Positions 9,330 through 36,757 of a DNA stretch of 38,555 nucleotides are shown piece by piece. The stretch covers positions 1 through 38,555 of the forward strand of contig MEXP01000018.1 of the NCBI GenBank assembly GCA_001773725.1. The letters are read 5' to 3'. This stretch comes from Candidatus Amesbacteria bacterium RIFCSPLOWO2_01_FULL_49_25. GTDB lineage: Bacteria > Patescibacteriota > Microgenomatia > CAZETR01 > Amesbacteraceae. The notes below the pieces were generated by a model. That model ran no database searches, was not told the DNA's origin, and saw only the letters and a program-made list of their open reading frames with translations. Positions within the stretch are counted from its first letter, which is position 1. Every line of letters begins with the position of its first letter. Position numbers and translations under genes: made by a program.

Positions 9330-12328
9330 ACCTTCCCTTCCACGATCTTTATCTCATCCTCCGTCAACCCATACAATTCATAGACTAGAGTATCAATTTG
9401 CCTATCTGTTGAAACGATCTCGCGTTTTACCAACTCTTGTTCCTGCGGCGTACGCGGATTACGCTTATGCAATTCCAACATTCGCTCCACAAGGGATACC
9501 ATCTTGTCGTACCTCGCTTTATCGGTGGGGTCAGAGAAGTTGATTTTTTTAACAGGGAAACCTTCTAGATACTGACCAAAGAAACGCAAATAAGTATCAC
9601 CTGTGCCTTCCAATCCTGCGCAAACGATTCTGAAATAGAAAAAACCTAGCTTTGAGTTTAATAATCCAAGCAGATACAAATCTCTTTTGGGAATGAAGTA
9701 AATGGTATTGGAACCGTAATGACCTTTTTCATCAAGAACAAACCGAGGAGTAGTAGCGATATCAGGGAAAATGATTTTTGGACTTTCAAAAAACTTTTTA
9801 TAAGCATACTGAGGCTGTTGCAGTTCATACCATTCCTGTCGTGTCACTCTTTTTATAAGTCTATCTTTGTAGCTATGCAGGTGTTTTTTTATAGCAGGAT
9901 ATTTTTCAATACTGACTCCATGATAGGTGTAGATCAAGTAGATATCTTTTGGCTCAAGGCTATAACGACGTATATCCCGACCATTCACGAATGGCTTTAT
10001 GATTTCTGCTGAGGTAGAGTAAGATGAAATTAATTGATTGCGGGTTTGTGAATCGATTACAAAAGCTTCCGTCAGGCCCGACTTCACACCCATAAAAATT
10101 TGTCCGTCACAATATTCAACTAAACGAGTGTTATCATCTTTGATTTTTGTCATCAAATCGTCAGTTTCTTGTGTTGAAAAACTCCAGATATTTTGAGTTA
10201 GAGCTGAAGGAGGAACTTCATAAGATGTTTCAATGATTGCTTCTTTTATAGGTAAGGATCCAGATTGTACTAATTTGAATTTCTCAATTTCAAGAGGTGG
10301 AGTGTAGATAATTGCTTTCTCCTCACTTTTCGTTTTACGAGACGAGATAATTACAATTGTGCGAACAGTTGCCCCTTTAAAAACTGGTAACCCTGCAAAG
10401 TCAACTACGCGCTCAATGGAGGCTGATTGCCTAATAAATTCTCGCAGAGGTTTTCCATAGTTTGCTCGCAAAAACTTATTCGACACAATCATTCCAAATC
10501 GACCTTTTTGGTTGAGAAGCTTATGTTCCTTTTCAATGAAATAAGCATACATATCAGAACGTTCATCATGAGAAACGTAGTTTCGCTTTAGATATGTTTT
10601 TAAATCCTTGAATTCTTCCATTCGAATATAAGGCGGATTCCCGATCACCACATCAAAACCGCCCTGTATGAACACCTGTGGAAAAGCTGTTTTCCAATCA
10701 AAAACGTTGACACGGTAGCGTTCTTCTTCGTCAATTAACATTGCCAGTTGTCGGCCTTCATAATAGTCAGGCCCAACCAGAGAATTTCCACATTGAATGT
10801 TCTTTCCTAAATCAGGCAAAACGCGTTCCTGAAAGAACGATAACTGCGAACCGATAGTTTCCTGATTCTCATTTTCAAGTACCTTCAAAAGCAAGGATAA
10901 TTTAGTTACTTCCACAGCTTGTGAGTCAATATCTACACCGAAGATATTGTTAAGTAGGATTTCTTTCTTCTTTGCAGTAGTGAGCCTCCAGCCATCCTTG
11001 ACTTGAAAGATGGCGGGGTTTTTACCTGTCGCAAACTTGTCAGGTTCATGGTGAAGATACCAATCCAGATGCCAATCTAATAAGTATTGAAATGCTCCCA
11101 ATGGAAAGGTCCCAGATCCACAAGCGGGGTCAAGTATTTTTACCTTTGCCGCTTCTTTTGGTGTTTTCCCCTCCAGTAGTTTGCCTACTGTGTTTTGTAC
11201 TATGTAATTCACTATATATGTGGGTGTGTAATAGACTCCACCAGCCTTACGAACTTCTGGCTTTTCTTCCACCTTTGCTTGATGTCCTGCCGTCAGTCGA
11301 ATGACTTTCCCGAGGAAACGCTCGTACACCTGACCTAAAATATCCGATGGAATTTCCCTGAATACATACGGGCTTTCGGGGTAATACAGGTTTTTGAGAA
11401 TATCATGTAAGGCCTTATCATCGATCTTCAAGCCAAGCGTCAATGAATCGGGGCCGCTAGATTGGTCTTTTTCATTCTTGAAATGGAACAAGCCAGAGTT
11501 ATAGCGCGCGTCTGCCCGTTGGAATAACTGACGAAGGTTTTCGTATATATTTCTAGCTGCTGAGATTTCTTTGAGTTGCTCATCACGTTCTATGCCGCGA
11601 TCTTCACAAATGCGTAGAAAGACGATGCGGTCAATTGTCATTTGCACTGCGTAGTTCAGTTCACGAGCTGTCAAATTAGGATTTCGTAAAGCCACATTCT
11701 TTGCCAGTAATTCTCGCCAACGTTCAATTTCAGCTAGGAACGCGTCATCTACTTCTGTTGTTCCCTTTTTACCTTTAATACCCTCAGCATAACTATCAAA
11801 TGAACCTTTTAAGACCGCTTCATGCGAAAAAATTGCAGCTATGGTGTCCCATTTGTCGATAAAATCTTTATACGAAAGTAAAAGAATTCGACCTGTTGAT
11901 GCTTTATCTCTTTTATCAGGCTTAACCCGGCAATCGTAAACTGCGAACTCTTCAAAATCTGTCAGAATTCCTAGAGGCAGCTTTGTGCTCCAGGCATATC
12001 GGCGCAACTGGAAGGCGGGGTGAATGTTGAACTCAATGTTGACTGCCGGCTTCTTGGCTTCTACAAAAAATTTACGTGTCCCGCCGATTCGAAAGGCATA
12101 ATCGGGGGCTTTGTTTGCCCCCTCAATTTCCAAAGAATCTTCATGAATGACTTCTTTATAGATTTCAGCATAACCTTGTCTATTCGCAACATCCCAACCA
12201 AGAGCTTCGAAAAAAGGATCTAAAAACTCACGCCGAAGTTGTGTCTCGTTATATCTTCCTAAACGGTATAAATTTCGGTTCTGCTCAAACCGCTCAACTA
12301 ATTGGTGGATGGTGTTTGGTGCGGGCAT
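9326..12328 (-). CDS. Type IIG restriction-modification enzyme (fused nuclease-methyltransferase)
   Basis: A single chain of about 1000 residues. The N-terminus has the 'LDPFFEALGWDV' segment of this family and a PD-(D/E)XK nuclease core ('APDYAF' followed by 'FFVEAKKP', i.e. D..E.K). An adenine-N6 methyltransferase follows, with motif I 'ILDPACGSGTF' about 400 residues in and motif IV 'NPPY' about 560 residues in. The last 300 residues are a TaqI/Eco57I-type target-recognition region ending in a helical tail. It should methylate and cleave DNA by itself. I prefer the start at 12328 ('MPAPNTIHQLVERF'); an in-frame ATG at 12352 adds eight residues but overlaps the end of a remnant frame. A near-consensus promoter lies at 12488-12516. 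Its stop overlaps that of the convergent recombinase. Confidence 0.9.
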   Translation of the reverse strand: MPAPNTIHQLVERFEQNRNLYRLGRYNETQLRREFLDPFFEALGWDVANRQGYAEIYKEVIHEDSLEIEGANKAPDYAFRIGGTRKFFVEAKKPAVNIEFNIHPAFQLRRYAWSTKLPLGILTDFEEFAVYDCRVKPDKRDKASTGRILLLSYKDFIDKWDTIAAIFSHEAVLKGSFDSYAEGIKGKKGTTEVDDAFLAEIERWRELLAKNVALRNPNLTARELNYAVQMTIDRIVFLRICEDRGIERDEQLKEISAARNIYENLRQLFQRADARYNSGLFHFKNEKDQSSGPDSLTLGLKIDDKALHDILKNLYYPESPYVFREIPSDILGQVYERFLGKVIRLTAGHQAKVEEKPEVRKAGGVYYTPTYIVNYIVQNTVGKLLEGKTPKEAAKVKILDPACGSGTFPLGAFQYLLDWHLDWYLHHEPDKFATGKNPAIFQVKDGWRLTTAKKKEILLNNIFGVDIDSQAVEVTKLSLLLKVLENENQETIGSQLSFFQERVLPDLGKNIQCGNSLVGPDYYEGRQLAMLIDEEERYRVNVFDWKTAFPQVFIQGGFDVVIGNPPYIRMEEFKDLKTYLKRNYVSHDERSDMYAYFIEKEHKLLNQKGRFGMIVSNKFLRANYGKPLREFIRQSASIERVVDFAGLPVFKGATVRTIVIISSRKTKSEEKAIIYTPPLEIEKFKLVQSGSLPIKEAIIETSYEVPPSALTQNIWSFSTQETDDLMTKIKDDNTRLVEYCDGQIFMGVKSGLTEAFVIDSQTRNQLISSYSTSAEIIKPFVNGRDIRRYSLEPKDIYLIYTYHGVSIEKYPAIKKHLHSYKDRLIKRVTRQEWYELQQPQYAYKKFFESPKIIFPDIATTPRFVLDEKGHYGSNTIYFIPKRDLYLLGLLNSKLGFFYFRIVCAGLEGTGDTYLRFFGQYLEGFPVKKINFSDPTDKARYDKMVSLVERMLELHKRNPRTPQEQELVKREIVSTDRQIDTLVYELYGLTEDEIKIVEGKV

Positions 12329-12332
12329 AAGA

Positions 12333-12416
12333 TTACTCGATGGCTTCTTCATAATCCTTAAGCACTTTATCCGAGAGACGGTAAAGACCCTCGTAGAAGC
12401 TGACCCGTAGCCTGCG
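12333..12416 (-). pseudogene. 3' remnant of a lost gene upstream of the type IIG gene
   Basis: In a frame different from the restriction gene, 27 codons read 'FYEGLYRLSDKVLKDYEEAI' plus a final residue and TAA, four bases before the preferred ATG of the restriction gene. The peptide has natural helix composition, and the stop-to-start spacing is that of an operon. Just upstream the frame is closed by a stop. I read it as the surviving tail of a gene once co-transcribed with the restriction enzyme. It is short, so chance is not excluded. Confidence 0.35.
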
Positions 12417-12567: not shown

Positions 12568-13035
12568 TTAATCTTTAGCAGATCGATAGTCTGCATGATT
12601 CGGAAGAGCTGATTTAATAAATTCGCCTGGGGAAAACGCCTGAACATCAAGATTTGCTTTATTCACCTCCAAAGCGAAACCTTTATCAAGCGTTAGAAGA
12701 AAAGGGGCATGAATCTCTAAGGCTGCGGCAACAACGTGCACATCTTTCTTATTCACCAGCTTTTCTAACCTGGCAAATTCTTCTCTATTTGGCAATGGAG
12801 CCAGAGAGAAGGGGACAATGGAAATTAGGTTGTACAACCTTTTTATTTCCTTGTCTCCAAGTTTTGACTGGATATTTTTCTGTGCTTCCAAAAGCACCGG
12901 CTGGGAAACGACTGCTTTTAGATAACCTCTGGCACAAACCGACAATAAAAAACCGGAGCCACCTGTAGGTGATCCGGCTGCGGCCACTAGGCACGATGAA
13001 TCGAAAAAAAGCAGAGTATCGCGGTCAATGCTCAT
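12568..13035 (-). CDS. PIN-domain toxin (VapC-like ribonuclease)
   Basis: A 155-residue PIN fold with the expected acidic positions: Asp12 in 'LLFFDSSCLV', a Glu in 'REEFARLEKL', Asp in 'NKKDVHVVAAALE' and Asp in 'LLTLDKGF'. PIN toxins are Mg-dependent RNases that cut tRNA or rRNA. The gene overlaps the upstream HTH gene by 4 bp (ATGA), the usual arrangement for a translationally coupled antitoxin-toxin pair. The ORF is slightly longer than a minimal VapC, with a C-terminal extension 'SALPNHADYRSAKD'. Role as toxin is inferred from fold and pairing. Confidence 0.8.
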   Translation of the reverse strand: MSIDRDTLLFFDSSCLVAAAGSPTGGSGFLLSVCARGYLKAVVSQPVLLEAQKNIQSKLGDKEIKRLYNLISIVPFSLAPLPNREEFARLEKLVNKKDVHVVAAALEIHAPFLLTLDKGFALEVNKANLDVQAFSPGEFIKSALPNHADYRSAKD

Positions 13036-13371: not shown

Positions 13372-13590
13372 TACTTAGGACTACTTACTTTTTTATTAAG
13401 AGCCATTGTCACAAACTAAAAGTTCTACCAAGTCAGACTACGAGTTTGTAAAAACACTGTCACATTTGAAAGGGTATTGTTCCGAAACAACCCTAAAATA
13501 TTTGTGCGAAAATTAAACGTTTTCGTGTATCATACAGGTGTCAAAAATATACGCAGCTAGCTATATTTGTTGTCCATCCAGGTGGTCAAA

Positions 13591-14946
13591 ATGATTAACG
13601 CGGAAGAAGTTGTGAACAAAGCAGAAGAGTTGGGTGTTCACCCATATAACGTCCAACGGGATTACATTTTTGGTTGGGTTCTTATGGGCATCTATACAGC
13701 CAGCGATCTTGGCGCTCACCTGATTCTCAAAGGTGGTAATTGCTTTCGTAAAGCCTATTTCGAATTAGCGCGATACTCTCCGGACTTGGATTTTGCAACA
13801 CCCGAGAGGTTTACTGAAGATTATCTTTGTAATCAACTAAATCTGTTGTGTGAGTTTATTGAAACCAGAACCGGCGTCCGATTTGAGCGGGATCGAACAA
13901 GGGTTGAAGAAAAACAAAGCGCCGACAAGGCAAAGTTCATTCATGAAGCGAGACTTTACTTCCACGACTTTTTTGGTGAGGAGAGCCAGATCATTATCAG
14001 TATTCGAATGGATATAAGCGAGCTTGAAAAGATATTTCTACCTGTTCAATCGCGTAATCTTATTCACACATATTCAGATCTGTCTGCCTGCCAGTGCCAA
14101 GTTAAATGCCTTAAACTAGAGGAAGTGCTTGCGGGCAAGTTGAAATGTCTCCTTCAGCGGCGCCACTCAGCGGATTTATACGACTTTGTCAATGCAACAT
14201 TCATTTCCCCCTCCATCGATATAAATCAAGCCGAAATTGTTTCGACGTTTTTGAAAATGACAATCTTCGGCTCTGGACCCGGGATTGTAAAGGAACTTCT
14301 TACTAACCTCCCTTTCCAGGTAATACGCGCGCTTTGGGATAAATATGTGGTTTGTCCGCGAGCATCAATCATAGATTTTGATGGAGCTGTAGAGGGATTT
14401 AGAGGGGTTGTAAATACCTTGTTTGGCTCCCTGCAACGGGGATGGGGTGATATAGCTTTCTTTCCTGCTGATCTTCGAAATCCAATTATGGAGGCAGGCT
14501 ATTCTCTTACACTCCTACGAATAGTTTACGATGGAGTCGAGCGTGAGGTTGAACCATACTCACTAAAATATAAAATAAGGCGAGACGGTGTAGGCCGGGA
14601 GTATCTTTACGTTTTTGATCAGACAGGAGGGAGAGGATCGGGACCAGGAATTAAATCACTCGTTCACAATGGCATTCAAGCAATTTCAAACACAGATATC
14701 CAATTCGAACCACGCCACGAAGTTGAATTGTCTAAAGCGGGACAGTTCTTTCAGGAAAAATACTTTCATTCAGTACCGCGTAATCAAACCATACGAAGTA
14801 TTTACTCGAAAAGTTCTCATAACTACACAATTGAATGTCCAGTATGTGGCAAACGCTTTTATCGGGAAAAATACAGCTCAAAGTTAAATCCACATAAAGA
14901 CAAGTACGGCAACCGTTGTTATGGAAGGATCGGTTATTTTGTATAA
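13591..14946 (+). CDS. AbiEii-type nucleotidyltransferase fused to WYL-like and Cys/His modules
   Basis: From the ATG at 13591 (AGGTGG six bases upstream; an upstream in-frame start lacks a site) the protein has 451 residues. Residues 40-210 form the AbiEii/AbiGii nucleotidyltransferase fold: 'LKGGNCFRKAYF' and 'YSPDLDFAT' give the GG and D-x-D motifs, and 'LEEVLAGKLKCLLQRR..ADLYDF' is the family's later motif. Residues about 310-390 resemble a WYL-like beta module ('RIVYDGVEREVEPYSL'). The tail 'CPVCGKRFYREK' with 'HKDKYGNRC' looks metal-binding. AbiEii proteins are type IV toxin-antitoxin toxins that modify tRNA; no AbiEi antitoxin is adjacent. The extra domains might provide built-in control or nucleic-acid sensing. 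The NTase call is firm, the other two domains less so. Confidence 0.8.
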   Translation: MINAEEVVNKAEELGVHPYNVQRDYIFGWVLMGIYTASDLGAHLILKGGNCFRKAYFELARYSPDLDFATPERFTEDYLCNQLNLLCEFIETRTGVRFERDRTRVEEKQSADKAKFIHEARLYFHDFFGEESQIIISIRMDISELEKIFLPVQSRNLIHTYSDLSACQCQVKCLKLEEVLAGKLKCLLQRRHSADLYDFVNATFISPSIDINQAEIVSTFLKMTIFGSGPGIVKELLTNLPFQVIRALWDKYVVCPRASIIDFDGAVEGFRGVVNTLFGSLQRGWGDIAFFPADLRNPIMEAGYSLTLLRIVYDGVEREVEPYSLKYKIRRDGVGREYLYVFDQTGGRGSGPGIKSLVHNGIQAISNTDIQFEPRHEVELSKAGQFFQEKYFHSVPRNQTIRSIYSKSSHNYTIECPVCGKRFYREKYSSKLNPHKDKYGNRCYGRIGYFV

Positions 14947-16926: not shown

Positions 16927-19038
16927 TCACCTTTGCATAGCTGCTAGAACAGCGACTTTTGCGTTTATTATCCCTGCTCCAGCGGAACCATCGGGGAGAG
17001 TAGCAAAATCTGTAGCAGTATCAGTAATAATAAACTTAATATCAGCAGGTTGGAGAGTTGAGTTAGCCGATAACATCAACGCCACAACTCCAGTTACGTG
17101 AGGAGCAGCCATCGAAGTTCCCTGATTCTCAGCATAGCTACCGTCCAAACCTAGGCTTAGAATACAATCGTCCTCCCCACCTAGACAAGAGGTTCCCGCA
17201 CCACCTGGTGCAGCTATGGTGATGAATGCACCAGTAGTCGAGTAGGGAGCTAAAGTATCACTTGGAGTTGATGCAGTCACGGCGATGACGTTATTGTATA
17301 TGGCTGCAAACGCTGCGGGGTATTTATACCTCTCCTTTTGATATTCAGGTGAGGCAGCAACAATTACTACTCCATGTTCAGCGGCATACTCTACAGCAAG
17401 CCTAAGCTCACCTCTACAACTTGGTTTGTCCGGATTACAAAAAGTAAAAGCTTTCTTTCCAAGGGTTAAATTAACATCATACGGAACACCGGTACTGATA
17501 CTTATCACCTCGTCACCATTGTCCACCGCTTCCCTAATCAAGAACGCGATATCATATGCATGTTGCAAAATAGTGTCACGGTTCAATGCTCTTTTAACCA
17601 AATTTAAGGGTTGATCGCTATACTTATAAATACTTAATCTGGCATGAGGGTGTATACCAGCAATCCCTATACCATTATTGGGAATTGCTGCAATAATTCC
17701 CGCTATATGCGTTCCATGCCCATTGATATCATTTGCATTATCTCCAACTAATGTAGCGGTTCTGTATATACGTCCTGCCAATTCAGGATGGTCTAAATCT
17801 GCACCTGTATCTATTATTCCTATGGTAACCGGAAAGGGAAAGCAACCAGGAAATTGATTAAGAGCCCCTGCAAGATCAATCCTTCTCATGTTCCATTGCT
17901 GGGGCCATTGGGGGTCTGTTGGCTCACAGGTTGGCAAGAGAGTGGGAGTCGGCGTTGGAGTAGGTGTTGGAGTCGGAGGTGGTGTATCCTCTATCACCAC
18001 AACGGTGTTTGTGCTTGGGCTAGCCACGTAGACACGGTTTGTCGTCTGGTTAACAGCAACCCCGCCACCAGTAACTGGAAGAGGGTCACCTAGAAAAGTA
18101 TTGGTGGCGCCATCTAAGACATAGAGGCCGTTCATTGCGACATAGATATGGTTTAGGTCTGTATTGACTCCTATGCTCCCTACCAAGGAATTATACAAAA
18201 GCGGTATTGAGGCAACTGTTTCTTGAGTGTCCAAATTAATAACTGATAAAGGTAGATTGAGACGGATATTCGAGCCGACGTATAAGCGTCTGGATATTGG
18301 ATTTAGACCTAGAGCATAATCATTGCTCCCGCCTCCAACACCCGTTATTGCAGAGACCACAGTGTCCGTATTATCTATAACAACTACCATTGCATTATAG
18401 TCATGAACATAGACCTTACCGGTTGTCGGATCGACGACTACCTGGGTTGGGCTACAGTAGCTACCGCTTGTTCCTCTAACCGGATCGGTTGCAATGCCAC
18501 AGTTTATTGTAGAGACAATGGTATCGGTTGCCCCATCAATGACATCAACGTAAGGGCCATGTGAGCTGCCTGGGTGAACAGTCACATAAATTCGGTTCGT
18601 ACTTGGATTTATTCCTACACCAAAAGCATTAATATCAACAGGTATTTCAGCGACAACAGTATTTGTCTCACCGTTAATAACCGAGAGCGGGCTACCAGCG
18701 TTGTGATTAGCAACATAAATCCTATTGGTTAAAGGGTTCACGTCAATCCCTGATGGACCCGGACCAACAGGAACGGTTGCGATAACCGAGTTAGTATTGC
18801 CATCGATAACCGAAACTGTGTTATCGGAATAATTGGTTACATAGATACGATTTGTGTTTTCATTAACGGCAATTCCGTTGGGCCCAACCCCAACCGGTAT
18901 TGTGGCAATGATAGAAATGGAGGAAGCTGTTTGTGCGCTTGTGCCTGTCCTCGGACCCAGATTTAAGACCAATAAACTTAAAAGTATTAAAACGTAAAAT
19001 AGAAATGAAGCCCATTTGGGAAAGCGTTTGGCATGCAT
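16927..19038 (-). CDS. Secreted subtilisin-like serine protease with YVTN beta-propeller
   Basis: 703 residues. A Sec signal peptide lies at about residues 8-35 (basic start, then 'FLFYVLILLSLLVLN'). Residues 40-350 are YVTN-type propeller repeats ('VGVGPNGIAVNENTNRIYV', 'NPLTNRIYVAN'). A Thr-Pro linker near 352-366 leads to an S8 peptidase: Asp in 'IGIIDTGADLDHP' (about 410), His in 'NGHGTHIAG' (about 441) and Ser in 'NQGTSMAAPHVTG' (about 645). It should be an active extracellular endopeptidase; the propeller may bind cell-surface or substrate partners. GGAGG precedes the ATG by seven bases. This architecture is typical of Chloroflexota secreted proteins and looks like cargo rather than an element function. 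Confidence 0.92.
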   Translation of the reverse strand: MHAKRFPKWASFLFYVLILLSLLVLNLGPRTGTSAQTASSISIIATIPVGVGPNGIAVNENTNRIYVTNYSDNTVSVIDGNTNSVIATVPVGPGPSGIDVNPLTNRIYVANHNAGSPLSVINGETNTVVAEIPVDINAFGVGINPSTNRIYVTVHPGSSHGPYVDVIDGATDTIVSTINCGIATDPVRGTSGSYCSPTQVVVDPTTGKVYVHDYNAMVVVIDNTDTVVSAITGVGGGSNDYALGLNPISRRLYVGSNIRLNLPLSVINLDTQETVASIPLLYNSLVGSIGVNTDLNHIYVAMNGLYVLDGATNTFLGDPLPVTGGGVAVNQTTNRVYVASPSTNTVVVIEDTPPPTPTPTPTPTPTLLPTCEPTDPQWPQQWNMRRIDLAGALNQFPGCFPFPVTIGIIDTGADLDHPELAGRIYRTATLVGDNANDINGHGTHIAGIIAAIPNNGIGIAGIHPHARLSIYKYSDQPLNLVKRALNRDTILQHAYDIAFLIREAVDNGDEVISISTGVPYDVNLTLGKKAFTFCNPDKPSCRGELRLAVEYAAEHGVVIVAASPEYQKERYKYPAAFAAIYNNVIAVTASTPSDTLAPYSTTGAFITIAAPGGAGTSCLGGEDDCILSLGLDGSYAENQGTSMAAPHVTGVVALMLSANSTLQPADIKFIITDTATDFATLPDGSAGAGIINAKVAVLAAMQR

Positions 19039-20453: not shown

Positions 20454-22370
20454 TTAAGGTGAAGAAAAAACCAAAATCGCATTGGCTACAGGTCGTCCTC
20501 CACCAATTATACTTTGCAGATTTGCCGACTTGAACCAGACTTGAGTTGAGCCTCCACCATCGAGCTTAATAGCTTTCCACGCTCCTTCGGCAATCAGCAC
20601 AGCAGCAGCTTGATCCATTGTTTTGTCAATGTCTGATACCACCACGATGAGGTAGCGTCCGTCCTGTGTCATACCTACGGCTGTCCATTTAAAGCTCGTA
20701 TTGCAGTACCATGTAGAAAGTTTTTCATTCCGGCACGGCCTGACACTGTTTGTTCCGCCGATACGTTCACTATTGTCAACGAACAGAGGTCCTCCTCCAG
20801 CCGTGTTGTGGTAAGCACTGTTAGGGATCCAGTCATAGCATTTTTTGGCATTACACTCTGTCAACTTGCCAATACGCAGTGTATTAGACGTGGAGATCGA
20901 TAATGAGCTACGCTTCCACTCATTACCATCGTTATCGGCCTCAGGTGGGTAAGCGTAGCGCCCAGTATTCTGTACTTTAAGTATTTTTTCTAAAATGGTG
21001 AGAACGGACTTTCTGTGGACTATGTATTTAGCGAGATTGGCTTTACCAACGTCATTCCAATCCTGCAACCATCTTGAAAATTGTTCTTCGATATATTCCT
21101 CATCTAGGGTCTCTTCTTCAAGAAGCTCCCCCGTCTCATCTATGAACTTTTCCTCTATTTCTCTGTGAATTTCATGCAATTTAAGATCCAACTCTCGTTT
21201 GGAAAAATCAGGTGGAATCTTGTCCAGCTTTTCGGGATAGTTGGCTACTATATATCGGTATTCTGGAGCTTCCGAATTCGCGTAATTTTTGATCTCTTCT
21301 TCTTTTCGGACTTTGACTTCCTCGGTATAGGGTTGCAGGAAGGCTTTAGACGCAGCCAAAACATTTTCGGTGATCTCGCTCCACTTTAATTCCTCGGAAA
21401 ACAAGCTCCCGTCTTCTGACATCGTATCAAAGCCTGTTCTCTGCTGGTCTGCGTGCTTGTCAAGGTAATCTGAAGAGACGTATCCCGAGTAAACAAACGA
21501 GCCGTCATTTCCTGGTTTAGATAGCGTAGATTTTAAATTGGGAATGAGGTTGCTGACTTTCTCAGCCAGAACAACACGATGATCACCACAATAATAAACT
21601 TGGTGTTTCAGATCAGCGTGTGCATTTAACAGTAGATGGACAATGTCAAATTTTCTACCTTTGATCTCAATGGATTCGGATTTATTTTCAGAAACCAAAC
21701 TCTCATATAACCTTTCAAGAAGTATAGGGGCATCTTCCGAATCGTCAAAAACTTGTACCGATGGCATGTTTCCCAGGATAAAATATTCCAAACAATGCTC
21801 TACAATTCTTTGAGCGATTGATGTTGCACTCCGGGGAATATTTTCTTGATATAGAGTTTTAAATCCATCCAACCGGACGACCGTTCTGATCTCCGAATCG
21901 TCCGATATTTCAACCAGGCTATGGTCTCGAATCCCAGAAGGATTAGCGAGTGAAAAGACGAAAGTTCTTTGCCATGTTTTACCGCCATCCCGAAATGTGC
22001 TATCAATTTCAACTTTATCAAAGGCTTTTAACCAGAGGAATCTTCCTACTCCCTTTCCTCCTCTTTTCTGTTTATAAAGCGTATCCGATTCGTTAAAAGC
22101 TTCGTAATTGGGACCAGTAAATCCGATCCCATTGTCTGTTACCTCAAACCCAATTATTTGGCTGAGCACACGGGAATCATTTTCGTTTTCTTCATTCAGC
22201 ATAGACTTGCTCGAACGCAAGATTTTTACCTTTATAAAACCTTCATCAAGATTTTTTTCGGCATCTTCTATTGCGTCAATGGAGTTAATAATTGCCTCAA
22301 ACAGCGGAAGTAAACCCTTAGAATTTGGAAGCGTGATGTTTCTCACCCGCCCTATCACATTTGAATTCAC
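20454..22370 (-). CDS. Chimera: GHKL (HSP90/MutL-like) ATPase fused to the end of a phosphodiester glycosidase
   Basis: 638 residues from a GTG with a strong AAGGAGG site. Residues 1-200 carry the GHKL ATP-binding fold: N-box 'EAIINSIDAIEDA', 'FEVTDNGIGF' and 'KRGGKGVGRFLWLKAF'. Residues 200-473 continue as the matching helical/transducer region up to 'RKSVLTILEKILKVQNTGRY'. From about residue 474 the sequence changes to the C-terminal half of a phosphodiester glycosidase (NAGPA/DUF2233): 'IPNSAYHNTAGGGPLFVDN', 'KWTAVGMTQDGRYLIVVV', 'AWKAIKLDGGGSTQVWF' and 'RPVANAILVF'. The two families are unrelated: one is intracellular ATPase, the other usually exported hydrolase. The join (near 20945-20952) therefore looks like a recombination scar. 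The ATPase module may still fold; the glycosidase lacks its N-terminal half. The ATPase may originally have been a defence gene. Confidence 0.75.
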   Translation of the reverse strand: MNSNVIGRVRNITLPNSKGLLPLFEAIINSIDAIEDAEKNLDEGFIKVKILRSSKSMLNEENENDSRVLSQIIGFEVTDNGIGFTGPNYEAFNESDTLYKQKRGGKGVGRFLWLKAFDKVEIDSTFRDGGKTWQRTFVFSLANPSGIRDHSLVEISDDSEIRTVVRLDGFKTLYQENIPRSATSIAQRIVEHCLEYFILGNMPSVQVFDDSEDAPILLERLYESLVSENKSESIEIKGRKFDIVHLLLNAHADLKHQVYYCGDHRVVLAEKVSNLIPNLKSTLSKPGNDGSFVYSGYVSSDYLDKHADQQRTGFDTMSEDGSLFSEELKWSEITENVLAASKAFLQPYTEEVKVRKEEEIKNYANSEAPEYRYIVANYPEKLDKIPPDFSKRELDLKLHEIHREIEEKFIDETGELLEEETLDEEYIEEQFSRWLQDWNDVGKANLAKYIVHRKSVLTILEKILKVQNTGRYAYPPEADNDGNEWKRSSLSISTSNTLRIGKLTECNAKKCYDWIPNSAYHNTAGGGPLFVDNSERIGGTNSVRPCRNEKLSTWYCNTSFKWTAVGMTQDGRYLIVVVSDIDKTMDQAAAVLIAEGAWKAIKLDGGGSTQVWFKSANLQSIIGGGRPVANAILVFSSP

Positions 22371-22967: not shown

Positions 22968-25898
22968 TTAGTTGTTGCGAAGAATGACAGGCATGAAAAT
23001 CCCGCTTAGTACACTGAAGGTGTCATCAGAAATATCTTCACCGGTATTAACGCCATCTGTTACAAGAATCTTTATACGATATTGTGCCCCTGCAGGTAGG
23101 GCTGAAACATCCCAAAAATAACCGGTCGAAGTAAGATCCCTAATAATCATTTCCCATGTTGCTCCGTTATCGGTACTGAAAAGTACTGTATACGATAAAT
23201 TATCACCGTCTGCATCGCTGCCGGACCACTCAATTTCTGCTGAGCCAAATAGTCTTTCACCACCATCAGGAGAAAGGAGAGTAACACTTGGTGAGTTTGC
23301 ACTAACAACCTTTTGTCCCAAGGAAACACTATTATGCTTAATGACGATCCTTGTGGTGTCGGCAATATAAGGAATTGTGTATACAAAAGGTGATTCGCTC
23401 AATGGTCTACCTTCTGTTTCGAATACGACGTCAAAGTTTAGCTGATGTAAAACTCCACCATTTATATCTTGATATTCAAAAACATAGGGTCCTGATGGTA
23501 CAACACTTAATTCAGCCTCCGGCAAGACATACCAGTTATCAAGTGTCACGTTACCTCCGGTGTCGAATATTCCCAAAGCCAAAATAGCCGGTGTGGTTTC
23601 ATCAGGCATTGTAGCTACATTTGTGGCAGCTTTATGATCATTGATAAGCTTCGAATAATCCTCTCCATCAATCCAATACTCCACATCAGCAGCTCCCCCC
23701 ATAAAACAGTAGATATCGCGTTGTAAAGGAACTTGGATAGGAATTTTCTTGTCAACCCATAAGCCAGGAGAGGCAAATAACCCAATGCGGTCTGGAACAC
23801 CATCGCAGTTTTGATCATACTCCTCACATCCAATATCCAATTGGTAAGAATGACCAATTTCGTGTGCGACAGTTGAAGCGCTACTGAGATGCCCTGGTAC
23901 GCTTGCTTCAGCGATAACGAGTTCCCTCGCTAGAGGGTAAGCGATCCCTACAGCATTAGTCAAAACACCTGTGGTGTTTTGCGAGAACCATCCTGGCGGG
24001 ACCGTTGCTACAAAACGGTCGGCTGTAGGGTGTGCAATCCGCATATCACCGAGTTTATCAAAAGCCCAACGGCCCAATTCTGATATATCCAGTTTCCCAT
24101 CTCCACCTCGAAAGCGTGTAGTATTACCCCCTAGAATGGTAGAGATGCTCGGGGTGAATCGTTGTGCGGAAACCGGGTAAACACCCCTGAAAAAATCATT
24201 GGTGGTTTGGTAGTAAGTGTCGAAAATGGTGAGAGGCGTGTTGCCCCAATCCGTTCGGAAGTAATGGATGTATAGATCCGGAAATAGTATCCCAGACCAT
24301 TTCGTATCATACACAGGTACAGGAGACGGTGTAACTTCGTTATTCGTCTCATTGGTCTCAGTTATGTCTTCTAAATAGTCCACTTTTATAGATACTTGAA
24401 ATGTGCTGCTAGTAGGAGTAAACCTGTCACTGAAGAAATAAATTGCCTTTACAGTCTCATTAGGCCCAAAAGAAAGCGGATATATGGAATTATCGTTGCG
24501 CAGGGCGTGTTGTGGGTCCAGATTCGCCGCCTCAGCAACATAGAAGCGACTTGTGATATAACCACCAACACTAGCCCGAGCGGACACATTTCCTGCTGTC
24601 CCACTTCCACTTTTGCGAATTACAGCTTTGATTGCTGTTACCTTACCCCTGACAAGTTCCTGCCCCTCAAGGACTTGAACAGGTGATACGGAATCAATAG
24701 AAAGATCAAGGGGTAGGATTTCCTTATCATGAACAAATATATCTTCTACCCCATTTGTGTCGTGGTTCACAAGGTTTGAAGCTAAAGAAGTGAAGACAAT
24801 ATATCCACCATCAGTAGAGATGGATGGACTCAATGACAAATTATTGGCCTCGACGCCACTAGAGGAAATCGACACACGAGTGGTTTGGCTCGTTTGCCGG
24901 TCGTGAACGAAAACATCTGGACACGGCTCCGGGAAACCTTTGTCAAAAACGCAAATATTTGTGTCCCCACTCACCAGATTGTTAGCCTGAGACCAAAATG
25001 TCACATATCGCGCATCGGCTGAAAAGGCCCCACCAGCTGAGACATTATTGCCCTGAATACCGCTTGACGAAACCGACACACGAGTGGTTTGCCCTCCCTG
25101 CCGATCATGAATAAAAACATCCCAGACACCGTTTGTGTCACCGCTTACCAGGTTACTTGCCTCAGACGAAAACCCTATGAAACGCCCACCTGATGAGATA
25201 GTAGCATAATTAGATGACATTCCATTTGCTTCCGTTCCGTCAGAAGCTACTGACACACGGGTTGTCTCGCTTGTCTGCCGGTCGTGGACAAAGATGTCCA
25301 TGGCGTTATTTGTATCATTGCTTACCAAATTGCTTGCCTCCGATTGAAAGGCCACATAGCGGCCATCGGCCGAAATACTTGCACCTGTTGAGAAATCATT
25401 GCCCTGAATACCGCTTGACGAAATCGACACACGAGTGGTTTGGCCCGTTTGCCGGTCATGAATAAAAACATCATCAGTGTTATTAGTATCGCCATTCACA
25501 AGGTTTGAAGCCACGGAGGAGAAAACCACGTAGCGACCTTCAATGGAAATGATGGGATAGCCACTATAACCAGTATCAGAATGTGAATTCCCCTGTGTGC
25601 CATCAGAGGCGACTGAGACGCGGGTTGTCTCGCCTGTCTGCCGGTCGTGGAGAAATACGTCTTCCGAGTCGTTGGTGTCACTACCAACAAGATTTGAAGC
25701 ATAAGAACCGAAAACCACGTAGCGACCATCGGCAGAGATTGATGAGTTGAATGAAACGTCATTCCCCTGCGTGCCATCGGATGCAACACTCACCATCTCT
25801 GTCGTTCCGTTCGGAGCCGCCACACTAAACATAATTGCCCGTCCAAACGTTGAAAAGAGTACGATGATAATTATCTTCAGATAAACAGTTTTTTTCAT
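22968..25898 (-). CDS. Large secreted protein: PD40-type propeller, CARDB-like domain, HExxH metalloprotease-like domain
   Basis: 976 residues with a signal peptide ('YLKIIIIVLFSTFGRAIM'). Residues 35-390 hold six propeller repeats built on 'SADGRYVVF.S.ASNLV..DTN', 'DVF.HDRQTG.TTRVS' and 'GTQGN'. A CARDB-like adhesion domain follows ('TAIKAVIRKSGSGTAGNVSA'). Around residue 679 lies 'STVAHEIGHSYQL', an HExxH zinc site followed by a Cys/Asp-rich 'DQNCDGVPD' loop. The C-terminus is an Ig-like domain ending in 'FMPVILRNN', a tail style shared by many Chloroflexota exported proteins and possibly a sorting signal. It is probably an extracellular zinc peptidase or surface adhesin. GGAG precedes the ATG by seven bases. 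Confidence 0.85.
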   Translation of the reverse strand: MKKTVYLKIIIIVLFSTFGRAIMFSVAAPNGTTEMVSVASDGTQGNDVSFNSSISADGRYVVFGSYASNLVGSDTNDSEDVFLHDRQTGETTRVSVASDGTQGNSHSDTGYSGYPIISIEGRYVVFSSVASNLVNGDTNNTDDVFIHDRQTGQTTRVSISSSGIQGNDFSTGASISADGRYVAFQSEASNLVSNDTNNAMDIFVHDRQTSETTRVSVASDGTEANGMSSNYATISSGGRFIGFSSEASNLVSGDTNGVWDVFIHDRQGGQTTRVSVSSSGIQGNNVSAGGAFSADARYVTFWSQANNLVSGDTNICVFDKGFPEPCPDVFVHDRQTSQTTRVSISSSGVEANNLSLSPSISTDGGYIVFTSLASNLVNHDTNGVEDIFVHDKEILPLDLSIDSVSPVQVLEGQELVRGKVTAIKAVIRKSGSGTAGNVSARASVGGYITSRFYVAEAANLDPQHALRNDNSIYPLSFGPNETVKAIYFFSDRFTPTSSTFQVSIKVDYLEDITETNETNNEVTPSPVPVYDTKWSGILFPDLYIHYFRTDWGNTPLTIFDTYYQTTNDFFRGVYPVSAQRFTPSISTILGGNTTRFRGGDGKLDISELGRWAFDKLGDMRIAHPTADRFVATVPPGWFSQNTTGVLTNAVGIAYPLARELVIAEASVPGHLSSASTVAHEIGHSYQLDIGCEEYDQNCDGVPDRIGLFASPGLWVDKKIPIQVPLQRDIYCFMGGAADVEYWIDGEDYSKLINDHKAATNVATMPDETTPAILALGIFDTGGNVTLDNWYVLPEAELSVVPSGPYVFEYQDINGGVLHQLNFDVVFETEGRPLSESPFVYTIPYIADTTRIVIKHNSVSLGQKVVSANSPSVTLLSPDGGERLFGSAEIEWSGSDADGDNLSYTVLFSTDNGATWEMIIRDLTSTGYFWDVSALPAGAQYRIKILVTDGVNTGEDISDDTFSVLSGIFMPVILRNN

Positions 25899-26125: not shown

Positions 26126-26201
26126 TTGACAACTGATCCACAATTATCTATCCTAAATTCAATAGAAAGTGTGACGGAAAACCCAATATTGGCTTTCGTC
26201 G
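26126..26201 (+). promoter_or_regulatory. parA promoter with operator-like 5' leader
   Basis: TTGACA (26126-26131) and TATCCT (26149-26154) are 17 nt apart. Downstream, GTGTGACGGAAAACCC..GGCTTTCGTCG (26169-26201) forms an interrupted dyad (GACGgAAA with TTTcGTC) ending nine bases before the ATG. No ribosome binding site is evident. The same module recurs at 19298-19372. Autoregulation by the ParA/partner complex is the likely use. Confidence 0.65.
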
Positions 26202-26210
26202 CTACTTACC

Positions 26211-26963
26211 ATGATTATCGCAATTGCCTCACAAAAAGGCGGTGTTGGAAAAACCAGTACTGCTATCTCGCTTGCCGCAGGCCTGGCCCGCAAAGGAAAG
26301 AAAACGCTTCTAATCGATATTGATTCGCAAGCTAACTCCTCCAAAGTGCTTATGCCCAATTACCCGGAAGTACCGGTAGAAAAAACCATTTTTTCCACCG
26401 TACTTGATCGCAAACCCCTGGTAATCCATAAAACCAGTATCCCGAATTTGTCTTTGGTTCCCTCTCATATCCTACTTTCCAATACCGATATCGAATTGAC
26501 GACGGCAATCGACCACAGGGAAGCCCGCCTCAAGACCGAGCTTGACCCGATAGCAAACGAGTATGAACATGTTTTTATCGACTGCCCCCCTACTCTTTCC
26601 TGGCTGACCATAAATGCCCTCACAGCAGCAGATAAGGCAATCGTCATCGTATCCCCTGGTTATTTTGAACTCGATTCAATCGTCCAGATCAGCAAGACCA
26701 TCAAAGAGGTCAGGGGATATTTCAATCCAAACCTGGAGCTGTTGGGATTTCTCTTTACCATGTCGGATCCCACCATCAACACCTCCACATCGCTTCAGAT
26801 ATTGAGGCAAACCTATACCGACAAGGTTTTAAAAACCATCATTCCCCGAAATACCGATCTCCGGGACGCCCATTTCTCAAAGCAGGATATTTTCGCCTAT
26901 AACCCGAGAGCAAAGGCCGCGCTTGCCTACAATAAGCTCATACACGAGCTTTTCGATATATGA
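26211..26963 (+). CDS. parA: ParA-family partition ATPase
   Basis: 250 residues with the deviant Walker A KGGVGKT at 9-15, switch I 'DIDSQAN' at 36-42 and Walker B 'VFIDCPPTLSWL' near 118-129. There is no N-terminal HTH, so it is the small (type Ib/Soj-sized) form. ParA ATPases position plasmids, ICEs or chromosomes on the nucleoid together with a centromere-binding partner. The partner is the next gene, overlapping by 4 bp, and probable centromere tracts follow. GC-skewed codon use ('ATCGACTGCCCC') differs from the AT-richer cargo upstream, in line with an element backbone. The gene has a promoter/operator module just upstream. Confidence 0.92.
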   Translation: MIIAIASQKGGVGKTSTAISLAAGLARKGKKTLLIDIDSQANSSKVLMPNYPEVPVEKTIFSTVLDRKPLVIHKTSIPNLSLVPSHILLSNTDIELTTAIDHREARLKTELDPIANEYEHVFIDCPPTLSWLTINALTAADKAIVIVSPGYFELDSIVQISKTIKEVRGYFNPNLELLGFLFTMSDPTINTSTSLQILRQTYTDKVLKTIIPRNTDLRDAHFSKQDIFAYNPRAKAALAYNKLIHELFDI

Positions 26964-27397
26964 AAAAGAAACTGAATACTGAAAGCATCACCAACGAACT
27001 CGAAGGAGCGTCCTTGTTTTTTACAAAATCCACCACTCCCCCATCACTCCCAGAACCCGATAAACAAATATTTGAAAAATATATTAGCCCTACACCTGAC
27101 TCCCCCACTCTACCAAAGGATAAAACTCCGAACCTTCAATCGCAAAATGAAGAAAATCAAGATCAAAAACGTTCGAACGACCGAACGTTCGAACGACCGT
27201 CCGAACGAACAGAGAAACCGAAAAGAGAAAAAATTCGGCATACTTTTGACATTTACAAGGACCAGCTTATGGCTCTCCAAGTAATCCAGCTTGAAGCGGT
27301 CCAATCCGGCAAGAAGAAGCCCAAACTCGGGAGTATGGTTTCCAAGGGTATCGATCTTTTTATCAAACAATCAGCTTTTAAAAAGCAACGTGCCTAA
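26960..27397 (+). CDS. Small basic ParB-like (centromere-binding) partner of ParA
   Basis: 145 residues, overlapping parA by ATGA. The first 90 residues are low-complexity and charged, rich in Pro/Ser/Asn/Lys. The C-terminal 50 ('IRHTFDIYKDQLMALQVIQL', 'KPKLGSMVSKGIDLFIKQ') have the strand-helix-helix layout of a ribbon-helix-helix DNA-binding domain such as those of plasmid partition adaptors. The segment 'RSNDRTFERPSERTE' is encoded by a tandem 16-bp DNA repeat with CG every 4 bp, so a likely binding site lies inside the gene itself. It is not a canonical ParB with a CTPase domain. The partner role is inferred from position, size and fold. Confidence 0.7.
   Translation: MKKKLNTESITNELEGASLFFTKSTTPPSLPEPDKQIFEKYISPTPDSPTLPKDKTPNLQSQNEENQDQKRSNDRTFERPSERTEKPKREKIRHTFDIYKDQLMALQVIQLEAVQSGKKKPKLGSMVSKGIDLFIKQSAFKKQRA
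27168..27210. repeat. Intragenic tandem repeat, CG every 4 bp (probable partition site)
   Basis: AACGTTCGAACGACCG occurs twice in perfect tandem (27168-27183, 27184-27199) and is followed by TCCGAACGAAC. Ten CG dinucleotides fall at exact 4-bp spacing from 27170 to 27207. The tract lies inside the ParA-partner gene. Confidence 0.75.
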
Positions 27398-27399
27398 AA

Positions 27400-27443
27400 A
27401 CGAACGAACGTTCGAACGAACGTACGCACGAACGTACGGACGA
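27400..27443. repeat. Second CG-every-4-bp tract directly after the ParA-partner gene
   Basis: Eleven consecutive tetrads of the form NCGN (ACGA ACGA ACGT TCGA ACGA, then ACGT ACGC ACGA ACGT ACGG ACGA) begin three bases after the stop codon. The register is perfect across 44 bp. Together with the intragenic tract it is a strong candidate for the centromere or operator of the partition system. Confidence 0.75.
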
Positions 27444-27578
27444 ATTTGACAAGGATAACTCCATTGTTTACTGTGAAGTACCGGAGAAGAACGTTTGAGG
27501 TTGTACCGCTTATAAGAGCGATAAATACGGGATATTTTTGATCTTGACTTTCGCCTATTATTCGGTATAGCTTAAAGT

Positions 27579-27600
27579 CTGTCCGGTATGGACGGTTTTT
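27579..27600 (+). terminator. Probable terminator after the partition module
   Basis: CTGTCC (27579-27584) pairs with GGACGG (27590-27595), with one G-T pair and a 5-nt loop, followed by TTTTT. A TTGACT/TATAGC pair (27544-27549, 27566-27571, spacer 16) lies just before it, so it may alternatively be a 5' attenuator for the next transcript. Confidence 0.5.
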
Positions 27601-27606
27601 AAAAGC

Positions 27607-27845
27607 CCTGCCAGTTAGTAGGAGATGTCGTCTGCTAAATCCACCCAAAAGGTGTGTGGTCTACAAGTGCCACTACGACCTAGGAGCAATCCGAACCGAA
27701 TCGGCTGTCAGGCCGGCGCTGCCGGAGAAAAAAGAACGGCAGGATAGGGGAGACAAAAAAACGCCTCGGAAGGATCCAAGGCGCCGCATTTATCTATTTG
27801 TTGTTTTAATTCTTGGACAACCCATTTATTCCCAAGAATTTTTAA
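27607..27845 (+). ncRNA. Candidate structured non-coding RNA with terminator
   Basis: No credible protein is encoded here. CCTGCC (27607-27612) pairs with GGCAGG (27738-27743) and encloses several hairpins: CACC/GGTG, GTGG/CCAC around 27656-27673, CCGA/TCGG, and CCGGC/GCCGG. The stretch ends in AATTCTTGG (27808-27816) paired with CCAAGAATT (27832-27840) plus a short T-run. A second perfect hairpin AATTTGC/GCAAATT lies at 27852-27869. It matches no RNA family I can identify (not RNase P, tmRNA, SRP or 6S by their conserved cores). Confidence 0.4.
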
Positions 27846-33825: not shown

Positions 33826-33996
33826 GTGGTGGTCGTGTACACCAAAAACCGTGGTTGCCCGATATGCAGGAACAATCTTTCGGCACTTATGCGCAGACAC
33901 GAAAACGGTAAGGACTGGGAAGTTTACGAGTGCAGAAATTGCGGTTCCGAGGTTTGGATCCTGCCTTTTAAAAGGATATTGGAAGGCAAACGGTAA
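33826..33996 (+). CDS. Small zinc-ribbon protein
   Basis: About 56 residues from a GTG near 33826 (AGGAAAGG just upstream; the exact GTG among several is uncertain). The CxxC pairs 'CPIC' and 'CRNC' lie about 26 residues apart in 'GCPICRNN' and 'YECRNCGSEVW', a classical zinc ribbon. Its stop overlaps the ATG of the primase gene (TAATG). An accessory role with the primase is inferred from coupling. Confidence 0.6.
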   Translation: MVVVYTKNRGCPICRNNLSALMRRHENGKDWEVYECRNCGSEVWILPFKRILEGKR

Positions 33997-34982
33997 TGAA
34001 AACACGGCCAGCATCTTCATTCTTGGCCTGGCCGTGGATTAACAAAACTATGAAAGAAAGACTAACACCCATCGAAAAAATAAATATAGCCAGCGAGTTT
34101 GCGAAGAACTTCGTCCAGCGATGGGATTTAAAAGCCATCCAGAGGAAGGACGGCAGTTATTTGTCCATCAAACACCCTTTGACCCATGATGATATTTTGG
34201 ATCATTTAAAAGGGGAGATTACTTTGGGTGCATACGTGCTAAATCCAGACAGCATGGCGCATTTTACCGTTATGGATGCAGACGATGAAACCAATTTTTC
34301 TGGTTTGATCGGCGTTTCGATGGTTTTAATGGCTCGAAAAATACCATCCTATATCGAAGAATCCCGTCGTGGTGGCCATCTATGGATGTTTTTTGATCCG
34401 ATGGACGGATGGAAAGCCCGATCATTGGGCAATACAATCGCTGAAAAATTCGGCGTCACCTGCGAGGTGTTTCCCAAGCAGGACAAATTGGGGGAGGGGC
34501 CTGGTTCTTTAATAAGGCTCCCATTTGGAGTGCATCAAAAAACCGGAAAAAGGTACGGTTTTATTGACCGTACTGGTAATCCTTTGGCTCCGACCCTTTT
34601 GGAGCAGCTAAAAATTTTGTCCTATCCTGAAAAAGTCCAATTGAGCGACGTTGAGTCGTATCTGCCAACGAAAAAACCGGTAAACCTACCCGGAAATTCA
34701 ATCCAGGAAGGTTCAGGAACTTCCTGGAGCCAGATCAAGGAGAAGATCAATATTAAGGACTTCATCGGTCAATACGTGGAGCTGAGGTCGTCTGGGGGCG
34801 GCGCAATGGGGAAGTGCCCATTCCACGATGACACCCACAACTCTTTTGGGGTAAATGAAAAAGGTAATTACTGGCACTGTTTTGCCGGCTGTGGTGGGGG
34901 ATCGGTTATAGACTTTTACATGAAGCTGAAAGGCGTTGACTTTAAAACCGCTGTTGAGGATTTAAGACAATGGACGAAATAA
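33996..34982 (+). CDS. AEP-type primase with C-terminal CHC2 zinc finger
   Basis: 328 residues. Residues 20-230 form an archaeo-eukaryotic primase (PrimPol/TOTE-type) domain: the metal-binding 'VMDADD' at 92-97, 'RRGGHLWMFFD' at 124-134 and 'LIRLPFGVHQKTGKRYGF' at 172-189. Residues 245-325 are a DnaG-type CHC2 finger: 'KCPFHDD' (C274, H277) and 'HCFAGCGGG' (C295, C299), ending in 'DFYMKLKGVDFKTAVEDL'. The zinc finger follows the catalytic domain, the reverse of DnaG. Such proteins prime replication of plasmids and ICEs. GGAAGG precedes the ATG; a second ATG at 34050 lies after a 9-bp stem-loop (34003-34036) and is a possible alternative start. Confidence 0.85.
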   Translation: MKTRPASSFLAWPWINKTMKERLTPIEKINIASEFAKNFVQRWDLKAIQRKDGSYLSIKHPLTHDDILDHLKGEITLGAYVLNPDSMAHFTVMDADDETNFSGLIGVSMVLMARKIPSYIEESRRGGHLWMFFDPMDGWKARSLGNTIAEKFGVTCEVFPKQDKLGEGPGSLIRLPFGVHQKTGKRYGFIDRTGNPLAPTLLEQLKILSYPEKVQLSDVESYLPTKKPVNLPGNSIQEGSGTSWSQIKEKINIKDFIGQYVELRSSGGGAMGKCPFHDDTHNSFGVNEKGNYWHCFAGCGGGSVIDFYMKLKGVDFKTAVEDLRQWTK

Positions 34983-35391: not shown

Positions 35392-35663
35392 CTGCTACAC
35401 ATTTGCTACTGTTTTAACAAAGAAATTGACAGGCACCGCCATATTTGGGGTGGCTTGCCTGTCAATTGCTATTTATTGCCATATATGGGAGTGACCCCGA
35501 GAGGACTCGAACCTCTAACCAATTGATTAAGAGGCTGGAGGCTTAAGCCTCCACTCCCCCAAATATGGCAAATAACTCCATTTAAACGGAAATTGGGGCA
35601 TATATAGCCCCAATATCTCCGCTCTTTCCAACTGTTTCTGTGTGTCTGCTACAGAATTGCTAC
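35392..35663. other. Probable attP: tRNA-Lys 3' half core with inverted repeats and arm-type sites
   Basis: CTGCTACACATTTGCTAC (35392-35409) and CTGCTACAGAATTGCTAC (35646-35663) match at 16 of 18 positions in direct orientation. They stand almost symmetrically around a tRNA fragment (35492-35533). That core is nested in inverted repeats GCCATAT/ATATGGC (35478-35484/35563-35569) and GGGAGTG/CACTCCC (35487-35493/35552-35558). A 16-bp palindrome GGAGGCTTAAGCCTCC (35537-35552) abuts the core, and TTGACAGGCA/TGCCTGTCAA (35426-35465) forms another dyad. This is the layout expected for a tyrosine-integrase attP. The right arm overlaps the end of the integrase gene. Confidence 0.65.
35492..35533 (-). 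tRNA. 3' half of tRNA-Lys(CUU), att core fragment (not a functional gene)
   Basis: On the minus strand: anticodon loop CTCTTAA (35533-35527), stem half TCAAT, five-base variable region TGGTT, T-arm AGAGG-TTCGAGT-CCTCT, acceptor half CGGGGTC and discriminator A. All segment lengths are canonical. The 5' acceptor, D-arm and 5' anticodon stem are absent; a palindrome is there instead. It is a fragment whose identity block ends in the anticodon loop, where many integrases cross over. Confidence 0.75.
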
Positions 35664-36757
35664 ATATTACCCATCAGTTGATCCATCTTGTCGGCAGCTT
35701 CCAATTGTAAACTGGGTATAACGTGGGAATAGGTGTCCAGGGTCAGACTGATTTGTGAATGCCCCAACCTTTCCTGGACTATTTTGGGATGAACGCCGGC
35801 AGCCAAGAGAAGCGAGGCGTGGGTATGTCTTAAATCGTGGAAGCGGATATTGGGTAGCCCCGTTTCTTTGATGGCACTTTTAAAATGCCTTACCAGATTC
35901 CTTGGGCTTATGGGTTTTCCAGAGGAAGTCGTAAAAATGAGCCCCTGATTCCTTTTCTGGATGTATAGGTAATCCGTCAGGATCGAGATTATTGACGAGG
36001 GAATTGAAACCGCCCGTTTTGAGCTTTCCGTTTTGGGTTCGGTCACAACCAAACCACCTTTCAATGCCTGGACAGCGTGTTTAACGTGGATCGTGCGATG
36101 GAGAATATCGACATCTTCAAAATAAATCCCCAGAACCTCGCCCTCACGCATACCCAGGTACACGCTCAAAAGGTAGATGACGAAAAACCTGTGGTCTTTT
36201 ACGGCATTCAGGAATTTTTTTACTTCCTCTATAGACCAGACTTCGGGAGCCTTTCGTTTAGGGTTAGGGTGATCCACCAGATCGGTGACGTTTCGATAGA
36301 CCAGCCCCAACCGGAGAGCCTGATTCAGGGCTTTGTGAAGAATTGAATGGATGAACTGGACAGTCCTTTTGGACAGTCCGGCATTTAGTTTGTCCGAATA
36401 AAACTTCTGGATGATTAAGGGGTTTAAAGCGGATAGTCTGTAATGGCCTAATCCTGGTTTTATATGTATCCTTATCAGGGATTCATAGCTTTCAAGAGTC
36501 TTCGGCCTAAGATTATGCCTGGCCACATCGTTGAAATAGCGGTCAATAAATTCGGAGACGGTCACTCTGTCATCTACGACCAGATTGCCTTGTTTCAGTT
36601 GATTAATTGAAGCTTGCAGCCATTCTCTGACGACCTGCTGGCTTTTGCTGCGTTTGCGTTTACGTGCGCCGTCAGGAAGCGATATTTCTGCTACCCAAGA
36701 GCCAGTTGAATTCTCTTTAAAAATACTACCTTCGTTATTCGATCTTCGCTTACTCAT
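35660..36757 (-). CDS. int: Tyrosine integrase of the element
   Basis: 365 residues. The N-terminus is an arm-type-DNA-binding AP2/SAMP-like module ('GSIFKENSTGSWVAEISL'), followed by a core-binding domain (65-160, 'TVSEFIDRYFNDVARHNLRP') and a catalytic domain with the complete set Arg204 ('LGMREGEV'), Lys242, His307-x-x-Arg310 ('HDLRHTHA'), His333 ('LGHS') and Tyr343 ('TYSHV'). AGGA lies seven bases before the ATG. The gene reads toward the tRNA fragment and its end lies within the right arm-type repeat. It should integrate and, with an excisionase, excise the element at a tRNA-Lys gene. Confidence 0.93.
   Translation of the reverse strand: MSKRRSNNEGSIFKENSTGSWVAEISLPDGARKRKRSKSQQVVREWLQASINQLKQGNLVVDDRVTVSEFIDRYFNDVARHNLRPKTLESYESLIRIHIKPGLGHYRLSALNPLIIQKFYSDKLNAGLSKRTVQFIHSILHKALNQALRLGLVYRNVTDLVDHPNPKRKAPEVWSIEEVKKFLNAVKDHRFFVIYLLSVYLGMREGEVLGIYFEDVDILHRTIHVKHAVQALKGGLVVTEPKTESSKRAVSIPSSIISILTDYLYIQKRNQGLIFTTSSGKPISPRNLVRHFKSAIKETGLPNIRFHDLRHTHASLLLAAGVHPKIVQERLGHSQISLTLDTYSHVIPSLQLEAADKMDQLMGNM

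Follow-up and report, generated by a model that had tools for sequence, protein, structure and literature searches.

Two repeat arrays in and behind a ParA-partner gene: a candidate centromere whose sequence follows the partner's predicted DNA-binding domain

The window analysed here is a stretch of 38,555 bases, the first part of a 43,824-base contig. It contains a parA-like gene, preceded by a promoter-like site and followed directly, in the same operon, by the gene of a small partner protein (Table 1). The ParA product carries the deviant Walker A motif QKGGVGKT, and KGGVGKT is also present in the window's relative. The overlap of the partner's ATG with the parA stop recurs in nearly all relatives, where the length of intact partners ranges from about 100 to 200 aa.

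Table 1. Features of the parA-partner locus and of the neighbouring element genes (positions in the window)
Feature	Position	Strand	Basis or remark
Promoter-like site upstream of parA, TTGACA-17-TATCCT	26126..26154	+	consensus scan only, 10/12 matches
parA-like gene, 250 aa	26211..26963	+	Pfam AAA_31 8.5e-50; PHROG 164 'ParA-like partition protein' 1.4e-64
Partner gene, 145 aa	26960..27397	+	ORF; ATG overlaps parA stop (ATGA)
Conserved N-terminal segment KKxLxTxxITNELxGxSxFF	26960..27031	+	only part conserved across all partner types
Array A	27169..27208	.	ten contiguous NCGN tetramers within linker codons
C-terminal DNA-binding domain (predicted), beta-alpha-alpha layout	27230..27394	+	AlphaFold monomer, pLDDT about 80 here
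Array B	27400..27443	.	eleven contiguous NCGN tetramers, first unit 3 bases past stop
Non-coding stretch after array B	27500..27790	+	fold z -1.7, no Rfam match
Primase-like gene (AEP-TOTE + DnaG zinc finger)	33996..34982	+	Pfam
Tyrosine integrase	35660..36757	-	Pfam Phage_integrase

The partner protein matched no Pfam, NCBIfam or PHROG family, and it had no significant Foldseek match and no sequence match in the PDB. It lacks the HTH and CTPase domains of HTH-type ParB proteins, whose parS sites recur around the origin. Used as a query, the partner retrieved no plasmid relative and only two marginal, chance-level matches in the genomes of the relatives; ParA as a query found plasmid and phage relatives only at a distance, none of those listed exceeding about 42% identity. 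A helix is predicted at partner residues 8-14, and the N-terminal segment is the probable ParA contact by analogy with other RHH partners. In the predicted C-terminal domain an extended segment (residues 93-99) is followed by two helices (100-115 and 123-144), and the linker before it is modelled with low confidence. Weak Pfam matches to RHH_1 in four of ten relatives and to RHH_3 in two of the ten, together with this low-confidence monomer model, only suggest an RHH fold.

The original prediction, which proposed a novel centromere here, described two tracts with ten and eleven CG dinucleotides at 4-bp spacing, and direct reading and scripts confirmed both. In array A, ten CGs stand at exactly 4-bp spacing between 27170 and 27207, within codons of the partner gene; in array B, eleven run from 27401 to 27442. 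The perfect tandem 16-mer said to lie inside the coding sequence was recovered by TRF as AACGTTCGAACGACCG, 2.0 copies at 27168-27199, and the second tract does begin three bases past the stop (TAA, 27395-27397). The tetramers of the arrays are contiguous, with no spacers between units. Elsewhere in the whole window the longest CG run at this spacing is three, and in 400 Markov-1 versions of the window it never exceeded five. The pattern CG(N2CG)x6 has no other occurrence in the 958-kb genome, and CG(N2CG)x7 was absent from all 94 related genomes searched. Synonymous recoding of the partner gene with local codon usage gave a best CG run of nine and reached the run of array A in none of 20,000 trials, so the constraint acts on the DNA and not on the peptide. 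Since a 4-bp period is incompatible with the 3-bp codon period, the linker peptide RSNDRTFERPSERTE, correctly read beforehand and already then taken to be shaped by the tract, is a consequence of the DNA sequence rather than its cause. CG dinucleotides every 4 bp are not in themselves unusual in large collections, where many matches are simple repeats; a search of viral contigs for the pattern was uninformative, most matches being simple repeats or GC-rich contigs. What matters is the position of the arrays and the conservation of their register, not the bare pattern.

ParA alignment brought up about 24 further loci, whose ParA is 66-77% identical to that of the window, besides one IMG/VR contig. 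They come from Chloroflexota, Streptomyces, Patescibacteria and one archaeal bin. One locus (L162) was too short to use, and two were disrupted (L160, L161): these Streptomyces copies of ParA have a broken frame and no partner was found beside them, and we regard them as decaying elements. In the partners, the N-terminus around NELxGxSxFF is conserved, whereas several dissimilar types of C-terminal domain occur. In 21 of 24 loci no other stretch was as strongly 4-bp-periodic as the partner region, with array A in the linker codons and array B at or just past the stop. The repeated words themselves vary widely. L141 has long CG tracts like those of the window; the words of L155, L156 and the Streptomyces loci are CG-rich. 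Tetramers of AATC/AGCA/TGAT make up the arrays of L020 (AGCA/ATCA words are also among the variants of the loci), GTC/GAC tetramers those of L145 and L153, and CCGACCG tetramers those of Streptomyces loci. Units of 8 bp are present in L144, L146 and L148 (TCATGAAG-like) and in L188 (CCATGATA), and in L142 GTAC returns every 9 bp exactly, with six copies in the linker and, behind the stop, four plus three. Array A is short in L155 and L156, which have no clear array B, and L149 is weak and also has no clear array B. Among 76 distant ParA loci, mostly of 30-42% identity, a 4- or 8-bp signal behind parA was found in two, and a signal at any of seven periods on either side in six. The scan of homologues thus returned a 4- or 8-bp register at the same two places, whereas the CG word was mostly absent. 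In the window, CG at 4-bp steps is how a more general two-array architecture happens to be spelled; CG itself is not essential to it. An 8/4-bp repeat, AAGCCAGCAAGACAGTAAGCCAGT, also occurs in the partner linker codons of the IMG/VR contig 3300043640_000199 (L251:1082-1345), where ParA is 37% identical and the partner sequence is RHH-like; the arrangement may therefore extend beyond this clade.

Each locus has its own word, shared by its two arrays. In the window, arrays A and B have a 23-point ungapped match in common, against a best of 15 elsewhere. Over 19 non-redundant loci the summed A-B score within loci was 343, versus 169.5 +/- 15.1 after permutation, with a maximum of 264 in 100,000 permutations (P<1e-5). 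A locus found later, and hence out-of-sample (L310), scored 13 versus at most 9 elsewhere. With array A as the query, a second copy was found at the stop in most loci, and, in the loci covered, nothing above background on the upstream side of parA.

The similarity of the words between loci was then set against that of the proteins. Motif similarity was taken between array A of one locus and array B of another, that is, at non-homologous positions, in 23 loci; similarity of the putative reader was taken as the identity of the C-terminal 62 residues of the partners. Corrected for ParA, motif and C-terminal domain gave a partial r of 0.58 (0 of 5,000 permutations; the loci are kin by descent, so the permutation values are strong but not exact), and motif and ParA, corrected for the C-terminal domain, gave 0.15. 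Where ParA was at least 85% identical and the C-terminal domain below 55%, motif similarity was 8.1, at chance, versus 18.3 where the same ParA threshold went with a C-terminal domain at least 75% identical. In these sequences, the array word tracks the C-terminal domain of the partner, not ParA. The centromere reading is supported in a modified form: it draws on the match of A and B within a locus and on the coupling of the word to this domain, and the CG word drops out of it.

Two pairs of Streptomyces loci have conserved flanks around a replaced stretch. In L142 and L143, whose ParA proteins are 97% identical, DNA identity is 90% through parA and the first ~20 partner codons; the sequences are then unalignable or about 50% identical through the linker, the C-terminal domain, the stop and array B, and more than 90% identity is regained about 110-160 bases behind the stop. 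The pair L150/L151 behaves likewise, with less identity overall. As donor and recipient arrays have no sequence in common (GTAC at 9 bp in L142, CCGACCG in L143), the crossovers are placed outside the arrays, at about codons 1-20 and beyond array B. The parsimonious reading is that in both pairs one block, consisting of site A, reader and site B, was replaced. On the ParA tree, 10 changes of reader type were counted versus a minimum of 7, a count taken on a tree most of whose deep forks are weak, and the excess is in line with exchange. What is new in this system is that site and reader appear to be exchanged together.

We consider it likely, on the comparisons above, that the pair serves an integrative or mobile element as its type I (ParA) partition module and that both arrays are the partner's predicted binding sites. 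The best reading of the array pair is as a candidate centromere of an RHH-like type I system, partly dual-coded in the disordered linker of the partner. Dimers of the RHH-type partner would bind side by side on both arrays, one per ~8 bp (two 4-bp half-sites), so that each array could seat about five dimers, and the bound dimers would form the partition complex. The N-terminal segment (KK...NELxGxSxFF) would contact and stimulate ParA, which would move the excised or replicating element over the nucleoid. Binding of the partner may also repress transcription through the partner gene. Since site A occupies linker codons and site B follows the stop, the reader domain would lie between its own sites, so a single recombination event at the flanks would swap site and reader together and create a new segregation specificity without a mismatch. 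We lean towards the further proposal that the locus is a self-contained cassette of segregation specificity, in which the dual-coded linker array and the post-stop repeat enclose the reader and the block is swapped in one step, so that compatibility is reset and the ParA-contact end stays constant.

The arrays could instead be operators only, the partner then regulating transcription, either of its own operon or of the gene behind array B, with no part in segregation. RHH partners commonly repress (PMC5016525, PMC9499535), and array B is intergenic in several loci; an autorepressor, however, would be expected to act at the promoter upstream of parA, where no array copies are found, and an array in mid-gene makes a poor operator. 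Contiguous arrays for about five dimers beside a conserved ParA fit a centromere better, and we hold an exclusively regulatory role to be unlikely; operator and centromere roles may go together. A binding protein other than the partner, for example a replication initiator acting on iterons or a recombinase, with the partner gene merely nearby, is decidedly improbable: replicons commonly carry iteron arrays, and a primase and integrases belong to the element, but the words track the partner's C-terminal domain and are swapped with it inside conserved flanks, which would be unexpected for a foreign site. Since the repeats flank a domain exchanged between lineages, they might also be recombination sites, or by-products, of the shuffling of the C-terminal domain that bind no protein. 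We give this very little weight, as the arrays of donor and recipient share no sequence, the crossovers fall outside them, and private words in strict registers need selection to persist. Functionless expansion of low-complexity tetranucleotides by slippage, the origin that the many simple repeats among CG-every-4-bp runs in public contigs would suggest, can practically be dismissed, because the outer letters vary around a constant core and register (NCGN, not (ACGA)n), both places are occupied in most of the clade versus two of the 76 distant loci, and the words are shared within loci far beyond permutation.

Behind array B, a non-coding stretch of ~300 bases is strongly conserved among Streptomyces elements (L143:5190-5490) and has another form in the window and L141. 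It is possibly a structured RNA, a regulatory region or an origin. In the window it folds only mildly better than shuffles, which lends little to a hairpin or RNA role. A promoter directly behind array B (TTGACA at 27446) was discarded, its -10 being poor and the scan not reporting it. Array hairpins acting as minus-strand terminators, considered because of a scan score, are not the general explanation, and this reading was rejected because the arrays of other loci are not palindromic.

Other genes on the contig encode two tyrosine integrases and an AEP/DnaG-like primase, along with a restriction-modification enzyme and proteins of the NACHT-HEAT and AbiEii types; a possible VirD4-like gene is weak and below the cut-off. 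Homologous primases lie upstream of parA in L141, L149, L155 and L156, and integrase homologues lie near the pair in Streptomyces loci and L144. As relatives of the pair adjoin homologous primases or integrases, the pair is probably a backbone module of mobile or integrative elements. Beside an integrase is a defence-like island (4388-8329, 8451-9329, 9326-12352, 12568-13035, 13567-14946) with NACHT-HEAT, an Eco57I-type restriction-modification enzyme, a PIN protein and AbiEii. The same contig encodes large secreted-looking proteins (22968-25898, 20454-22370, 16927-19038), with CARDB, phosphodiester glycosidase NAGPA and NHL-subtilase features. No other relative of this ParA was found in the genome. 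Among 380 genomes of the host phylum, this ParA is present in one, the window's own, and the nearest relatives of the locus are mostly from Chloroflexota; the host assignment of the contig is therefore uncertain and may reflect a binning error. The argument is left intact by this, as it is based on the locus and its relatives. The parA-partner loci L144 and L146 are nearly identical; one belongs to a Patescibacteria bin and the other to the complete Pelolinea submarina chromosome (Chloroflexota), for which either a recent transfer or faulty binning would account.

A partition site and its reader have to evolve together, and it is an open problem how a new pair originates without an unfit intermediate. 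Recent natural exchanges, in which ParA is 97% identical and the reader and both sites are replaced, make the question directly testable by swapping one ~330-bp block. The locus also indicates that selection at the DNA level can write a disordered protein linker, which explains odd linkers such as that of the window's partner. Non-triplet registers in the linkers of ParA partners offer a route to the centromeres of uncharacterised elements.

A search confined to the open-access literature found no report of a repeat-array centromere that is dual-coded in a partner's linker or exchanged with the reader domain. The delta/omega/parS system of pSM19035 resembles the present one in combining ParA and a small RHH partner (here only predicted to be RHH) with contiguous short repeats; the occurrence of its repeats in both direct and inverted orientation and the N-terminal ParA contact are also counted as likenesses, and ParA activation by its RHH partner requires at least four contiguous repeats (PMC9499535). 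Its repeats, however, are 7-bp WATCACW units that overlap the promoters of copS, delta and omega, whereas here a 4/8-bp register lies in the partner codons and behind the stop, nothing lies upstream, and the word is locus-specific. The RHH (type Ib) centromeres described so far are found at the promoter, in front of the operon (PMC5016525); the arrays in and behind the partner gene do not have this classical position of centromere and operator. ParF/ParG/parH of TP228 shares a ParA-like ATPase, an RHH partner with a flexible N-terminus (again only predicted here) and tetramer boxes (PMC7308502), but the tetramers of parH are degenerate and broken by AT-rich spacers; the tetramers here adjoin one another without spacers and are in part dual-coded. 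In B. subtilis, parS-359 is a centromere site that lies in parB, the gene of the protein that binds it (PMC4442127); that is a single site for an HTH-type ParB, unlike the repeat array proposed for a non-HTH partner, the second array at the stop and the exchange of both arrays with the reader domain seen here. ParMRC of Clostridium perfringens differs in being a type II system with parC separate from parR, for which neither dual coding nor block exchange of a site with a DNA-binding domain is reported. It shares with the present loci the co-variation of centromere and reader specificities between families, and in C. perfringens plasmids these families determine incompatibility (PMC9426499).
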